The translations under genes and the position numbers were made by a program. 39,795 nucleotides of DNA, taken from Acidobacteriota bacterium (GTDB lineage Bacteria > Acidobacteriota > Terriglobia > Terriglobales > Acidobacteriaceae). The DNA is taken from positions 143,676 through 183,470 of the forward strand of contig QIAB01000036.1 of assembly GCA_003225455.1 (NCBI GenBank). The letters are read 5' to 3'. Within the stretch, counting starts at the first letter, position 1, and each line of letters opens with the position of its first letter. Positions 21,787 to 36,869 of this stretch are shown in pieces. A model generated the notes under the pieces. The model was not told where the DNA came from and made no database searches. It saw only the letters and a list, made by a program, of their open reading frames with translations.

Positions 21787-22497
21787 ATGCATCGAGTGCT
21801 GATTGCATTATCTGTTCTAGCGCTGTGCGGATTCGCTACTGCTCAGGTCACGGTCATCTCCGGTTACGCCAGCAATTGGGCGCCGGGCTACAGCGTCTAT
21901 CAGACACCTGGAGCATATGCTGCTCCGTTTGTGCCGCTGGTGACCACTCCTTCGGTATCGATTGAAACTGGGATGCCGACGCGGATTGGCGCAAGCAACG
22001 CCACAACCGGCAACGTCGCCGGCGCCACTAACTCCACGCCGGGCTACAGCATCTATCAGACGCCCGGAGCATATGCTGCTCCGTTCGTGCCGCTGGTCAC
22101 AACTCCTTCGGTATCGATTGAAACTGGGATGCCGACGCAGATTGGCGCAAGCAACGCCACAACCGGTAACGTCGCCGGCGCCACTAATTCCACCATCTCC
22201 CTTGTTGCACCCAACATTGTTGCACCGAACATGTCAGCGTCACCGGTCGTGCGGGCTGCCCCGGGAACGGAACTTGGACAACAAAACGGAGCCGGCACTC
22301 AGAGCGTAACTCCGCCAACAAACGATCGCCTCGAACTAGGAGCCGCATCGTTCCAAGCAAGCCGGGGCGCCGCTCAGTTGATCGCTTCTCGCCAACAACA
22401 GAAGCCGGCGCGAACCATCACAAACGACGATATCGATCGCTTGAACCAGCAGAACGGAACAGTTCAATTCAAAGGTAAAACCGAAAAGATCGAATAG
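21787..22497 (+). CDS. Secreted protein with two 52-residue tandem repeats, unknown function
   Basis: A 236-residue exported protein. ATG 21787 follows GGAGG at good spacing. Residues 1-20 form a signal peptide (VLIALSVLALCGFATAQ). Two tandem 52-residue units follow (residues 33-84 and 85-136), each with PGYS-V/I-YQTPGAYAAPFVP, VSIETGMPT and IGASNATTGNVAGATNST. The rest is low in charge until a basic/acidic C-terminal part with ARTITNDDIDRLNQQNG, a motif seen at the end of other short acidobacterial exported proteins in my recollection. There is no Cys for lipidation, no sortase signal and no barrel. It is probably periplasmic or extracellular. I do not recognise the family. Confidence 0.65.
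   Translation: MHRVLIALSVLALCGFATAQVTVISGYASNWAPGYSVYQTPGAYAAPFVPLVTTPSVSIETGMPTRIGASNATTGNVAGATNSTPGYSIYQTPGAYAAPFVPLVTTPSVSIETGMPTQIGASNATTGNVAGATNSTISLVAPNIVAPNMSASPVVRAAPGTELGQQNGAGTQSVTPPTNDRLELGAASFQASRGAAQLIASRQQQKPARTITNDDIDRLNQQNGTVQFKGKTEKIE
21883..22194 (+). repeat. Two tandem 156-bp coding repeats
   Basis: Units 21883-22038 and 22039-22194 agree at 146 of 156 positions by direct comparison. Eight of the ten differences are silent and two change a residue (Val/Ile and Arg/Gln). The unit is exactly 52 codons, so copy number could change without breaking the frame. Confidence 0.9.
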
Positions 22498-30615: not shown

Positions 30616-31510
30616 AACTCCGCGTTCGAGTCAAAGGGGGTGCCCCGTTTTGCCGAAGGCCGTTCTCGGAACGCGGCAAGTGCAGTTATTCGGAGAAAGT
30701 TCCTAGAGTTGCTCCGTAGCGCCGGCATCCTGCCGGCTGTCTGGCGGGCGTCTCGCCCGCCTATTAAAGCCATCATAGGGGCGGGTGTCCTTCCTGCCCG
30801 GATACCCTATCCATTCGCATTTCTTGGAAACCTGGGGATTTTGAATTTGGGTGGCGCAGCGCTTCAGCGCTGCGGTAGGGGCACCTAGACTGGACGGCTT
30901 TAGCCTCTGAGGTTCCCTGCTCTGGCTCACTCCTCGACTTGTCATTCCGAATCCGCTTTAGCGGTGAGGAATCTGCTTTTTGCAAAAACATTAAAGATTT
31001 TTTGAGGAGCGCGGATCTCCCATCCTTTCGCATTTTTGGAAACGTGGGGATTTTGAATTCGCTAGCGTAGCGCCGGCATCCTGCCGGCTGTCTGGCGGGC
31101 GTCCCGCCCGCCTATTAAAGCCACGTAGGGGCAGGTGTCCTCACCTGCCCAATAAACTTCCCGCTTTGTCATCCAAGGGAGTCCTTCGCTCTGCGAAGGA
31201 CTCGCAACGAAGCATCTATGCATTTCTGTTTCGCGCGGGTGCCCCAGCCTGCCCTGAGCTTCGTCGAAGGGTCTCGCTGCCTTTGCGAGACCTGGGCCCC
31301 GCAAAATTTCCCCACCCCGACTCCATCCAGATCACGCTCGGGCAAGTCATGCGCATGATCGCTGCCGCCAGGTGGACACCAAAGCCGCCGGCCTGCTGCT
31401 CTACGCCCTGCAGATCGCGTCGGCCAGTGGAATCTGAGACTCTCCCAGGCGAGTTGCCTTCCGCGCCGACGCTTGACAGTTGCGTGCCTGGAAGTCCACC
31501 ATCTTTCGCC
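30616..31510. repeat. Repeat-rich intergenic region with composite palindromic elements
   Basis: I see no gene in these 895 bases. The region contains two 57-base copies (30716-30772 and 31067-31123) that start GTAGCGCCGGCATCCTGCC and differ at one base. There are also two copies of a GGAAAC-CTGGGGATTTTGAAT-like segment (about 30828 and 31036), a CGCAGCGCTTCAGCGCTGCG palindrome (from 30855), a GACGGCTTTAGCC segment (30894), a GATTCCG/GGAATC-bounded segment with CCGCTTTAGCGG (about 30948-30975), and a CCTGAGCTTCGTCGAAGG segment (about 31253). All are repeat-type palindromes. A short open frame at 31166-31510 only extends the VOC gene. Confidence 0.8.
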
Positions 31511-32455: not shown

Positions 32456-32885
32456 TTAGCGTTTGCGCCGTTCCTGATTGCGCAGCCTTCTTGACTGCGC
32501 TAGAATAACTCCGCTCTCGCGATTCTCCCTTCCTTCTTCTTTTCCCATCAATTTTATAGGCGCGTGCTGCATTGTGTGTGCAAAATGATGGTGCCTCCTG
32601 TAAGGTCATACAAGATATGGTGTTTTATTCCTTGACCCCGGCGGGATTTCGCCGTTACAGTAGCTCTAATTTGTGCCCTGCCCCGTCCAGCCCGGGCCGG
32701 CAAACAAGGGGAGCGAAGCGCGGAGGAACCCTGTTGGTAAACCGGGCTGAAGCATCGTTCATCGAACGGCGAAAGTACGTGCACCGCGATATTTCTACGC
32801 CTGGACAGCCGCCAGGGCGGCGGCGCTACGCGTCATCAACATCGACTAGACAGCCGCCACGATTGGGGCGCTACAGGAGTTTCCG
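32456..32885. other. Intergenic region upstream of smc
   Basis: This 430-base gap has no convincing gene. It holds a GCGCAG/CTGCGC hairpin just after the VOC gene (about 32480-32498), a TTGACC (32632) with a weak TACAGT -10 (32656-32661, 18-base spacer) that could serve smc, and two copies of the GACAGCC hairpin unit (listed separately) just before the smc ribosome binding site. Confidence 0.55.
32804..32874. repeat. Two GACAGCC hairpin units in the smc leader
   Basis: Units 32804-32829 and 32849-32874 are 26 bases each and start 45 bases apart. Both start GACAGCCGCC and end GGCGCTAC, like the repeat unit elsewhere. The first has GCCGCC/GGCGGC arms in place of GCCGGC/GCCGGC, so the hairpin is kept by compensatory change. 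The smc ribosome binding site AGGAG follows directly at 32875. Confidence 0.75.
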
Positions 32886-35800
32886 TTGCTCAAACTGAAG
32901 AAGCTGCAGATTCTCGGGTTCAAATCGTTCTCGGACCGCACCGAACTGAAGTTTCATGGGGACGGGATTGCGGCGATCATCGGGCCGAATGGGTGCGGCA
33001 AGTCGAATATTGCCGATGCCATCTCGTGGGTGCTGGGAGAGCAGTCGGCGAAGACGCTGCGCGGATCGCGTATGGAGGACGTGATTTTTGCGGGCACGCG
33101 CGATCGCAAGCCGAATGGGATGGCGGAGGTGTCGCTGACGCTGATTAATCCTGAGGAGTATGACGGGGCGGACGCGAATGAGCCGACGGAAGTTGAGATT
33201 CAGGAGGAAATGCCCGCGGATGATTGGGATGAAGCGGAAGTGCGGGCGCGGGCGGCGGAGGAGACGGAGCGTCTGAGTGAGGAGTTGCAGCCGGGAGTGG
33301 TGGAGGGTGATCCCTCAGCGGCTAAAGCCGACGGTGATCAGGAGCAGGAATTCGCAGCGCTGAAGCGCTGCGCCACCCAAGAGCTTTCCCAAGCTGTGGA
33401 AACCATCAACGGCGGCGGGCGAGACGCCCGCCCGACAGCCGGCGAGGACGCCGGCGCTACGAGTGCTGAATCCGCGACAGTGCCGGGCGAGGACGCCGGC
33501 GCTACGGATCATCATATCGGGCCGGCGGTGGTGTTGAAGATTCGGCGGAGGAAGTTTCAGCAGCAGTTTCGTGCGGGAGAGATTGTCGTCACTCGGCGGC
33601 TGTTCCGGTCTGGGGATAGCGAGTACCTGCTGAACGGGAAGCTGTGCCGGTTGCGGGATATCCAGGAATTGTTCATGGGGACGGGGCTTGGGCCGGAATC
33701 GTATGCGCTGATCGAGCAGGGCCGGATCGGGCAGATTCTGAGCAGCCGTCCGACGGACCGGCGGGCAATTATCGAAGAAGCGGCTGGGATCACCAAATTC
33801 AAAACGAAGAAGCGGCTGGCGGAAGCGCGGCTCGAGGATGCAAAGCATAACCTGGCGCGCGTGAATGACATTTTCGAAGAAGTTACACGGCAGATGAATT
33901 CGCTGAAGCGGCAGGCGTCGAAGGCCGAGCGCTATGCCAAGCTGCGTGATGAAATGCGGGCCAAGCTGCGGGTTGTGCTGGCCAGCAAGTTCGCGCAACT
34001 CGATCGCGAGAGCGCGGAAATCGACGCGCAGATCAACACAGTTTCCGAAGAGATGCGGACGCAGGCTGAGAATGTTCAGCAGTTTGAAGCAGAGCATGGC
34101 GAGCGGACGCAACGTGGATACGCAATCGAGGCGGAGCTACGCGAGAATCGCGAACGGCTGAATGAGATCAAACTGGAAGCGGACCGGGCGCAGGGGCAGC
34201 GCCAGCACAATGAAGAACGCTGCGCAGAGCTAATCGTTCGCGCAGGTTCCTCGGAAAATGAGTTGGCGCAAGCTCAGCATAGGTTGACGACGCTCGAGTC
34301 AGAGAGGGACTCGAATCAGCAAGTGCTGGATTCGGCAGCGGCGGATGTAGCCGCGGCGCAGGAGGAATTGGCGCGTTGTCAGGAGGAGGCGGCTGCTGCG
34401 GCAACGGCGCTGGCGGAACTGGAGCAGCAGCAGGAAGCTTCGCGGCTGGCGATCATGGAATCTGTGGCGGCGGTTTCCAATCTGCGCAATCAGCTCACGC
34501 AGGCGGAAGAGCGGCTGGCGGCAGTGGATCGCGAGGCGCAGCGCCTGCTCGCTGACATGGAGGCGGCCAATTCTCAGGTGGAGGCTTTCGGCGGCCAACG
34601 CGGGCAGTTAGCGTTGGAATTTGAAACGGTGTCGCAGCGCGTCGCGGGGTTGACGACTGAGATCGCGTACACGCGGCGGGCGCTTGAGTCCAAACGTCGT
34701 GAAGAGGGGGAATCGAAAAACCGACTCGACAGCTTGCGGGCGGAGTATGCATCGGCGATTGGGAAGAAGGGATCGCTGGAGGCAGTGATCGCCGAGCACG
34801 GATATTCCACTGAGTCTGTCCGTCGGCTCTTTCAGTCAGGCGGGCTCGAGGGAGGACTAGCTCCAGCTGGCGTGTTGGCTGATTTTCTGGAAGTCGAGCC
34901 GCGCTATGAAGCCGTAGTCGAAGATTTTCTTCGTGATGAACTGAATTACATCGTGGTGAAATCGTGGGATGCAGCCGATGAAGGGCTGCGGCTATTGCGC
35001 AGCGATGTTGATGGCCGCGCGACTTTCCTGGTGCATCCTGAAGATTCGCAGGCGAAGTTTTCCTTTGTCGTAAACGAGAATGCGCGCCACGCGGCGCCGA
35101 ACCCGTCAATTGTGCCCTTGAAGAATGCTATTCGGGTGCTCAATGGGTTCGGGCGGTCGCTTGAAGTGATCCTGCCCAAGTTGCGCGACGGCTATATTGC
35201 CGGCGATCCTGCGAATGCGCGCGAACTCGCGCTTGAAAATCCTGATGCGTTCTTCCTTGCGCCATCGGGTGAGTGCTTCCACAACGTGACGGTGACGGGA
35301 GGCAAGCAACGTAGCGAAGGTCCACTTTCAATGAAGCGCGAGCTGCGCGATGTGCTGCGCGCCTTGACAGAGCTGGAACAAGCGTTGCGTACCGAGGAAA
35401 TGCGGGTTCTGACGCTCGGCCGCGAAATTAAAGACCTCACTTCCCTGCTCGACCGTCTTGAAGATGAAAAACGAGATGCTGAGAAGCAGGCGATGACTTC
35501 CGGCCATCTTTTGCAGCAGCTTGACTCAGAGATGGCGCGAATCAGCGAACGGATGGACATCAGCCAGAGCGAGCTTGAACGGCTGAGAGCTGAGCGCCGC
35601 GAGCAGGAAGCTCTGATTAGCGCGCGCCAAAGCGAGATTTCTACATTGCAGCAGAAACGTGACGAACTGGAGCGGAGCGCGACCAGCGCGCACGAGCAGT
35701 TGGCAGGTTTACGCGCGCGGCGCGATCAGGCTGCGGAAAATGCGTCGCGGCGCGTGGGGCGAGTGGCGACGCTTGAAGAGCGGCACCGGGCGGCAGCGGC

Positions 35801-36869
35801 AGTATTGGAACGAATTGAGTCGCTGGTTGGGGAAATGAGCGAGCGGGTGAGTTCGTTGCGCGCGCAGATTGAAGCTTCGCATGCCGAGAAGCTGCAACGT
35901 GAGGCGGAAAACGAGCAGATTGCGACGCAACTGGTCGAATTGGAAGCGGAACGCAATGCAAGCGCAGCCCGAGATGGCTTGTTACAGTTCGAGACCGAGC
36001 AGGTTCGGGCTCGATTAGCTGAGATCGATGAAGCCTTGCGAAACGCGCGGCAGTTGCTGGATCACGCTCGCGATCGCAGGGGCGAGCTTTCAGCGGCTGC
36101 GGCCAAATTGCAGTCCGATGTCCAGTACATGGGCGAGACTTGTTTAAATGAATTGGGCGCGCAGCGCTTGGAATTGATGGCGGATGCGACGATTCCGATT
36201 GCTGAAGGCGAGCAGCTCGCAGTCGAAGATCAGATTTATCGCGAGATGCGAACACGGCTCGATGCTATGGGTCCGGTGAACATGATGGCGTTGGAAGAGT
36301 ACAAGGAAACTGCTGAGCGCCATGCATTTCTAGAGACACAGAGAAAAGATCTGCTGGAATCCATTGAGAACACGCAGGCGACGATCCGCGAAATCGATAC
36401 GTTCTCGCGGCAGAAGTTCGTGGAAGCTTTCGGCAAAATCAACGAAAATTTTCAGACGACGTTCAAAAAGCTTTTCGGAGGCGGACATGCTTTCATGCGC
36501 CTCACCGACGAGGAGAACAGCGCAGAGAGCGGGATTGACGTGGTGGCATCGCCTCCGGGCAAGAAGCTGCAGAATGTTCTGCTGCTCTCTGGCGGCGAAA
36601 AAGCTCTGACCGCGCTGGCCTTGCTGGTTGGCATCTTCCAGTACCAGCCCAGCCCGTTCTGCATTTTAGACGAAGTGGATGCGCCGCTCGATGAGGCGAA
36701 CATTGCGCGCTTTACCGAGTTAGTCCAAGAAATGTCGGTGCAGACACAATTCGTGCTCATTACTCACAGCAAGAAGACGATGAGCATTGCGCCGGTGCTC
36801 TACGGTGTGACGATGCAGGAACCGGGAGTTTCTAAACTAGTGTCAGTGCGGTTTGGGGCGACGGCATAA
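32886..36869 (+). CDS. smc: Chromosome segregation protein SMC with a repeat-derived insertion
   Basis: A 1327-residue SMC ATPase, the core of bacterial condensin. TTG 32886 has AGGAG six bases upstream. The Walker A is IIGPNGCGKSNIADAI (residues 31-46); the signature LLLSGGEKALTALALL (about 1230) and Walker B FCILDEVDAPLDEAN (about 1257) close the head. Between them are two long coiled coils and a hinge at about 630-815 (GYSTESVRRLF, VTVTGGKQRSEG). Between SLTLINPEEY (about 90) and VVLKIRRRKF (about 215) is a long acidic insertion not found in Bacillus subtilis Smc. Part of it (residues about 143-192 and 199-207) is translated palindromic repeat, giving ALKRCAT, GGGRDARPTAGEDAGAT and a second GEDAGAT. 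No scpA or scpB gene is adjacent. Confidence 0.96.
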   Translation: MLKLKKLQILGFKSFSDRTELKFHGDGIAAIIGPNGCGKSNIADAISWVLGEQSAKTLRGSRMEDVIFAGTRDRKPNGMAEVSLTLINPEEYDGADANEPTEVEIQEEMPADDWDEAEVRARAAEETERLSEELQPGVVEGDPSAAKADGDQEQEFAALKRCATQELSQAVETINGGGRDARPTAGEDAGATSAESATVPGEDAGATDHHIGPAVVLKIRRRKFQQQFRAGEIVVTRRLFRSGDSEYLLNGKLCRLRDIQELFMGTGLGPESYALIEQGRIGQILSSRPTDRRAIIEEAAGITKFKTKKRLAEARLEDAKHNLARVNDIFEEVTRQMNSLKRQASKAERYAKLRDEMRAKLRVVLASKFAQLDRESAEIDAQINTVSEEMRTQAENVQQFEAEHGERTQRGYAIEAELRENRERLNEIKLEADRAQGQRQHNEERCAELIVRAGSSENELAQAQHRLTTLESERDSNQQVLDSAAADVAAAQEELARCQEEAAAAATALAELEQQQEASRLAIMESVAAVSNLRNQLTQAEERLAAVDREAQRLLADMEAANSQVEAFGGQRGQLALEFETVSQRVAGLTTEIAYTRRALESKRREEGESKNRLDSLRAEYASAIGKKGSLEAVIAEHGYSTESVRRLFQSGGLEGGLAPAGVLADFLEVEPRYEAVVEDFLRDELNYIVVKSWDAADEGLRLLRSDVDGRATFLVHPEDSQAKFSFVVNENARHAAPNPSIVPLKNAIRVLNGFGRSLEVILPKLRDGYIAGDPANARELALENPDAFFLAPSGECFHNVTVTGGKQRSEGPLSMKRELRDVLRALTELEQALRTEEMRVLTLGREIKDLTSLLDRLEDEKRDAEKQAMTSGHLLQQLDSEMARISERMDISQSELERLRAERREQEALISARQSEISTLQQKRDELERSATSAHEQLAGLRARRDQAAENASRRVGRVATLEERHRAAAAVLERIESLVGEMSERVSSLRAQIEASHAEKLQREAENEQIATQLVELEAERNASAARDGLLQFETEQVRARLAEIDEALRNARQLLDHARDRRGELSAAAAKLQSDVQYMGETCLNELGAQRLELMADATIPIAEGEQLAVEDQIYREMRTRLDAMGPVNMMALEEYKETAERHAFLETQRKDLLESIENTQATIREIDTFSRQKFVEAFGKINENFQTTFKKLFGGGHAFMRLTDEENSAESGIDVVASPPGKKLQNVLLLSGGEKALTALALLVGIFQYQPSPFCILDEVDAPLDEANIARFTELVQEMSVQTQFVLITHSKKTMSIAPVLYGVTMQEPGVSKLVSVRFGATA
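33313..33505 (+). repeat. Composite dispersed repeat embedded in frame in smc
   Basis: Three modules lie in the same order as in the reverse complement of 30716-30912. They are CCTCAG-C-GGCTAAAGCCG (from 33313), the 26-base CGCAGCGCTGAAGCGCTG plus CGCCACCC (33353-33378, a perfect match), and GGCGGGCGAGACGCCCGCC followed by the GACAGCC hairpin unit (33414-33460). An additional hairpin unit lies at 33480-33505. The reading frame stays open through the whole insertion. Confidence 0.85.

Follow-up and report, generated by a model that had tools for sequence, protein, structure and literature searches.

How do palindromic repeats that normally lie between genes come to stand, in an open reading frame, inside the ATPase head of a chromosome partition protein? 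The question is raised by a window of 39,795 nucleotides (the whole stretch of DNA analyzed here), located on contig C18 of an acidobacterial genome (G000; 4.99 Mb, 195 contigs). Among named genomes, those of Terriglobales / Ca. Korobacteraceae type, metagenome assemblies for the most part, are its nearest relatives. The gene concerned, smc (32886..36869, + strand), starts with TTG and encodes a chromosome partition protein SMC of 1327 aa, recognized by its Pfam SMC_N and SMC_hinge domains and by the PDB Smc heads 3zgx and 5xg3. A first-pass annotation had read part of this gene as an intergenic composite repeat translated in frame, and a literature search on acidobacterial intragenic repeats in smc gave nothing relevant.

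Two families of palindromic repeats lie in frame within smc

All of the module matches proposed by the first-pass annotation are present in smc. Positions 33313-33330 agree at 17/18 positions with the reverse complement of 30895-30912, 33414-33443 is 97% identical to 30732-30761, and 33445-33461 and 33490-33511 both match 30715-30731. A match described as perfect over 26 bases is indeed perfect, and its true length is 28 nt: 33353-33380 agrees at 28/28 positions with 30847-30874 read on the opposite strand. No longer exact match exists between smc and the reverse complement of 30715-30912, and in 1000 codon-order shuffles of smc the maximum was 15 nt. The frame is open across all repeat modules, as had been claimed.

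These modules belong to two families rather than to one composite. Element A (33313..33380, ~68 bp, + strand), identified by sequence match, spans SMC residues 143-165 and is a double palindrome made up of CCTCAGCGGCTAAAGCCG, a 22-nt spacer and CGCAGCGCTGAAGCGCTGCGCCACCCAA, which together encode SAAKADGDQEQEFAALKRCATQ. Element B (33414..33461, + strand; SMC residues 177-192) is a 48-bp double-hairpin REP with a GTAG tag on the opposite strand and encodes GGRDARPTAGEDAGAT, and the extra hairpin that had been noticed near 33480 is a half element B, composed of the second hairpin and tag only (33486..33506, + strand), which encodes GEDAGAT. Intergenic copies of both families occur in the same window, B at 30715..30761 and 31066..31112 and A, as core plus left module, at 30847..30912, all on the minus strand. 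Two diverged half-B repeats also lie in the smc leader (32804..32874, + strand; 32804-32829 and 32849-32874), the downstream one ending ~11 nt 5' of the start codon, directly upstream of the ribosome-binding site. That A and B form a single composite element, as first proposed, is ruled out by their occurrence apart almost everywhere else and by unequal spacing: 30715-30912 is the only other place found in this genome with both, and there they are separated by 85 nt, compared with 33 nt in smc.

Elements A and B are dispersed genomic repeats

The core of A, GCAGCGCTGAAGCGCTGCGCCACCC, has four exact places in the 4.99 Mb genome, that is, three besides smc, while its reversed control has none. 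The first hairpin of B, GGCGGGCGNGACGCCCGCC, yields 21 genome matches compared with 0 for its control, and a covariance model built for the 48-bp unit of B returns 110 matches at E<=1, ~75 of them at E<=0.002, with the smc copy at E 6.6e-12. The general architecture of A is CCTCAGCGGCTAAAGCCG, ~20-25 nt and (A)TCGCAGCGCTGAAGCGCTGCGCCACCCAA(AA); its intergenic copies in this genome lie at 30847-30912 and two other places, and the related genomes G100, G101 and G102 contain many more. Element B reads GGCGGGCG-AGA-CGCCCGCC-nGACA-GCCGGC-loop-GCCGGC-GCTAC. Its terminal GCTAC (reverse complement GTAGC), which adjoins the GCCGGC-type hairpin, is invariant in 38/38 aligned copies, and the arms of the hairpin change in a complementary manner among these copies (GCCGGC/GCCGGC to GCCGCC/GGCGGC). 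Most of the examined copies of this multicopy element fall outside convincing genes, and its tag-side part, 20-28 bp, also occurs by itself, as at 33486-33506.

Since B starts with GTAG on the opposite strand, it belongs with the GTAG-tagged REPs as described by Di Nocera, De Gregorio and Rocco (2013; PMC3733652), with an extra hairpin. Such REPs are short palindromes that end on one side in an unpaired GTAG; they occur mainly between genes, as single units or dimers, and some lie wholly within ORFs of several species. The unit of B measures 46-48 bp and is longer than the typical REP unit of 20-40 bp because of its second hairpin, while the tag-side part, taken by itself, falls inside that range.

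The repeats occupy a linker that is hypervariable in Terriglobales

The first-pass annotation had the repeats add about 50-65 residues to a long insertion in the SMC head; that insertion is not itself the product of the repeats. All Terriglobales relatives that were read possess, at this place, a hypervariable linker of 46-116 aa, which follows a conserved acidic stretch (DWDE...QPG...VVLKIRRRK), and the repeats sit within it. In the species studied here the linker measures 103 residues, and the repeats lie in residues 143-207 of SMC. Solved Smc heads have almost no residues at the linker: query residue 97 aligns with chain residue 95, and query residue 232 with chain residue 97. An AlphaFold model of SMC 1-355 reached a mean pLDDT of 54 and rendered even the known fold poorly, and we therefore make no structural claim from it.

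Other palindromes occur in this linker in relatives. Over 124 distinct SMC linkers we counted 21 hairpins of >=7 bp compared with 9.5 expected from codon shuffles, an excess that we regard as an indication only because related rows are not independent. The SMC of genome G050 carries a third palindrome, GACGGGCGGGGACGCCCGTC, of which two further family copies lie at L252 of the same genome. A tandem repeat, SSINSSINSSIN, different from that of 13_2_20CM_55_8 described below, stands earlier in the same head insertion of the SMC of G013, and within the window a hypothetical protein (21787-22497) has a duplicated stretch, PGYSIYQTPGAYAAPFVPLVTTPSVSIETGMPT.

Element A is shared with the SMC of two other species

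Among the ~99 distinct SMC linkers of relatives that were read, B is present in none and A in two only, those of 13_1_40CM_3_55_5 and 13_2_20CM_55_8, in which it is read in the same phase (AALKRC[AT]TQ). The outcome that the first-pass annotation had named as refuting its view, namely identical residues in every relative together with a lack of nucleotide copies at other places in the genome, was thus not observed. In the linker of 13_2_20CM_55_8, tandem units of ~27 bp (TQNPxxxDD) follow element A, with the ACCCAAAATCC edge of A as their apparent source.

The three A-bearing genes could descend from one old insertion in the ancestor of these species, later lost elsewhere, instead of from parallel events. 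The linker, the orientation and the phase of both palindromes are all the same and a GAA(A/T)TCGCAGCG junction is shared, and a constrained tree that holds the three species together is not rejected (p-AU 0.46). Against this, the SMC tree groups the species studied here with that of G052 (94/87), whose 49-aa linker is without A. Furthermore, third codon positions of smc are 47-48% alike between our species and the other two, while those of the A core agree at 9/9 and 8/9, too closely for an old neutral insertion. A core left nearly unchanged across three species at nearly saturated synonymous sites would not be predicted by a purely neutral old insertion, as judged from these codon comparisons. 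We consider a single old insertion, which would refine the explanation favored below and not replace it, plausible, with a probability somewhat below even, and parallel insertion of A, or its homogenization by other copies, to be at least as likely.

Element B recurs in frame in other genes

The repeats are in frame in smc, as first reported, and they are not confined to it. We scanned for B copies well inside long ORFs and required recognized domains, a design to which genes broken by a REP are invisible. Besides smc, Pfam-confirmed genes of the same genome with B in frame are those for UvrA, FtsK, BshB1, a UvrD/PcrA helicase and a MoaD-MoaE fusion, and G050 has B in frame in MetH and in a beta-propeller repeat protein. 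The end of MurB in G050 may be a further host. Some candidates were discarded because the ORF was doubtful or had been extended too far at its N-terminus, namely hisD, a peptidase-like gene, a cytochrome b gene and the loci L006, L061, L138, L139, L257, L267 and L310, and a 24-nt match within a permease gene (L256) was taken as chance.

Comparison with structures and relatives indicates how these copies are accommodated. In BshB1, 30 residues from a REP pair stand between GLAKLD and NLAPHRPFK, which join nearly directly in solved homologs, and the BshB1 of G009 also carries B, with a peptide, RAGRPQDSRQDAGAT, identical to that of our species. In the MetH of G050, ~14 residues are added between PE and ELVRFRFPRQ, at a point where solved homologs have little or nothing between the flanking residues. 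The UvrD linker, ~106 residues long compared with ~10 in the PcrA structure, contains B in our genome and in G009, and half of B in G011. UvrA follows a different course: its linker consists of three consecutive REP-like units, from RTGETPAPTS to DAGAT, which replace the lysine-rich linker of relatives and do not lengthen it, and in G009 the same UvrA linker carries a REP-like stretch in the opposite orientation. The UvrD and BshB1 insertions common to G009 and our species may, from their sequences, be either inherited or parallel.

Two further observations concern these hosts. The inter-domain linker of the MoaD-MoaE fusion is itself a REP, which may have helped to make the fusion, and the UvrD linker of G001 has an in-frame TAA beside a KLETRNSKLET-type repeat, for which a frameshift, a pseudogene or an assembly error are possible explanations.

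Rickettsial palindromic elements have a preferred reading frame. Element B is open in 5/6 frames, and six of its eight host genes (SMC, UvrA, FtsK, BshB1, UvrD and MetH) read its tag end in the same phase, (D/E)A(G/S)AT. The most hydrophilic frame, RARRPPDSRQDAGAT, with a GRAVY of -1.9 compared with -1.2 to +0.15 for the other frames, is used in five of those six, the exception being SMC, where the copy is one base longer. In this small sample, the phase preference fits selection against frames that would place hydrophobic residues in a linker.

Transposase genes and the likely origin of the inserts

GTAG-tagged REPs are often associated with RAYT transposase genes. The genome contains 11 matches to the Y1_Tnp domain (RAYT/IS200 transposases), one of them a truncated match ~400 bp from a copy of B. 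At L111 (G000:C26:74810-75016) a Y1_Tnp gene is flanked by GTAG hairpins and is likely a REPtron; its hairpin family is a further one that has a copy in the window, recognized by sequence (GTAGGGGCAGGTGTCCTCACCTGCCC; 31125..31150, + strand). At L110 (G000:C18:237421-237720) a Y1_Tnp gene is flanked by 28-bp inverted repeats and GGCTAAAGCC palindromes, likely as a TIR-flanked tyrosine transposase element. The ends of L110, to be compared with the TIRs of acidobacterial tyrosine transposases (TIRYT; PMC3733652), resemble element A in their plan of GGCTAAAGCC, a ~20-nt spacer and a palindrome with a TGAA loop, but the second palindrome is of another sequence and A itself is not at L110. No transposase flanked by element A itself was found, nor was any intact transposase with full copies of A or B on both sides found in the genome, and we therefore infer the mover. 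The Y1_Tnp neighborhoods support, short of proof, mobilization by such enzymes, and A and B probably are, or formerly were, moved by Y1/HUH-type (RAYT-like) transposases.

The explanation that we favor, and consider likely, is that REP-type elements, probably moved by RAYT-like transposases, have landed repeatedly in tolerant protein linkers, where they survive if the frame is open and the peptide hydrophilic. The linker of the SMC ATPase head would already have been tolerant and hypervariable when small non-autonomous palindromic elements inserted into it on two or more separate occasions. The smc insert would then be translated as a flexible linker that is probably near neutral for SMC, although it could instead be skipped or removed. 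Two observations speak against this explanation: the near constancy of the A core across the three species, and the UvrA repeat, which takes the place of the usual linker sequence and adds no length. The same process would have been repeated in the linkers of other proteins, several of which serve genome maintenance.

Other readings of these data fare less well. A chance or compositional likeness of GC-rich coding sequence to the repeats has a negligible probability: 7-bp GC-rich palindromes do arise in such linkers, as the 9.5 expected in 124 illustrate, but an exact 28 nt against a shuffled maximum of 15, pattern controls of 0-1 and the E value of the smc copy of B are far from what chance provides. 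We also judge it very improbable that a metagenome-type assembly produced a repeat-induced chimera. Assemblers can be misled by repeats and the genome is in 195 contigs, but the site lies deep within a 243-kb contig with the frame intact on both sides, a repeat of 48 bp is shorter than the usual read, and further genes, some of them in assemblies independent of this one, also have copies in frame.

It is more difficult to dismiss the idea that the insertions are kept for a function, with hairpins that tune mRNA stability or translation or peptides that alter genome-maintenance proteins, comparable to the mutator-like effects suggested, as speculation, by Di Nocera and colleagues. Of the six host genes in our genome, four belong to genome maintenance (SMC, UvrA, UvrD and FtsK), a tilt like that described in the main text of PMC3733652, the core of A is conserved past synonymous expectation, and half-B repeats also directly precede the smc ribosome-binding site. 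But in relatives the linkers that hold these peptides are free to differ in both length and sequence, the elements are absent from most of these relatives, and the bias rests on six genes, was noticed after the fact and may mirror which proteins have long linkers. Its binomial chance of ~1e-5 to 1e-4, which assumes 3-5% such genes, is likewise post hoc and uncorrected for linker length. We regard a functional reason for retention as quite unlikely. The broadest form of the argument, namely that Terriglobales REPs are a recurrent, phase-selected source of linkers that strikes preferentially at genome-maintenance proteins (SMC, UvrA, UvrD, FtsK), independently on the same linkers across genera, and is functional for chromosome maintenance, seems to us unlikely as well.

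Relation to known intragenic repeats and significance

The first-pass annotation had likened the smc insert to rickettsial palindromic elements. The likeness holds in that mostly intergenic palindromes are found in an open frame: rickettsial elements stand in frame within proteins that are likely functional (cited in PMC3733652), and the smc, uvrA, uvrD, bshB1 and metH inserts are likewise palindromes that stand in frame in genuine genes and are missing from many orthologs. The elements described here are from another phylum and are mostly intergenic. Our comparison covered their placement in genes, and we do not file them as rickettsial elements. A closer precedent is provided by the intragenic GTAG REPs of the 2013 study, the main text of which itself cites the in-frame rickettsial elements and reports many intragenic REPs in replication and repair genes, namely uvrA, uvrB and uvrD (uvrABCD), recBCD, polA and dnaE2, including cases in uvrA and in UvrD-type helicases shared with B (PMC3733652). 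Because intragenic GTAG REPs have thus been described, the phenomenon is a known one, here in a new host group and in new host genes. In the main text of that study smc and ftsK are absent and Acidobacteria are named only for TIR-flanked transposases; SMC and FtsK are thus targets not named there, and Acidobacteriota are a new host group for intragenic REPs.

Normally intergenic repeats repeatedly turn into protein-coding sequence in these bacteria. The intragenic REPs reported in 2013 came from a limited set of complete genomes and had a puzzling tilt toward DNA repair (PMC3733652, main text), and the Acidobacteriota show the same tilt. With repeated strikes on the linkers of UvrD, BshB1, UvrA and SMC, and with many genomes at hand, the puzzle of gene bias becomes testable by counting, in a setting that lets mobile DNA be watched as it turns into the protein sequence of core genes.
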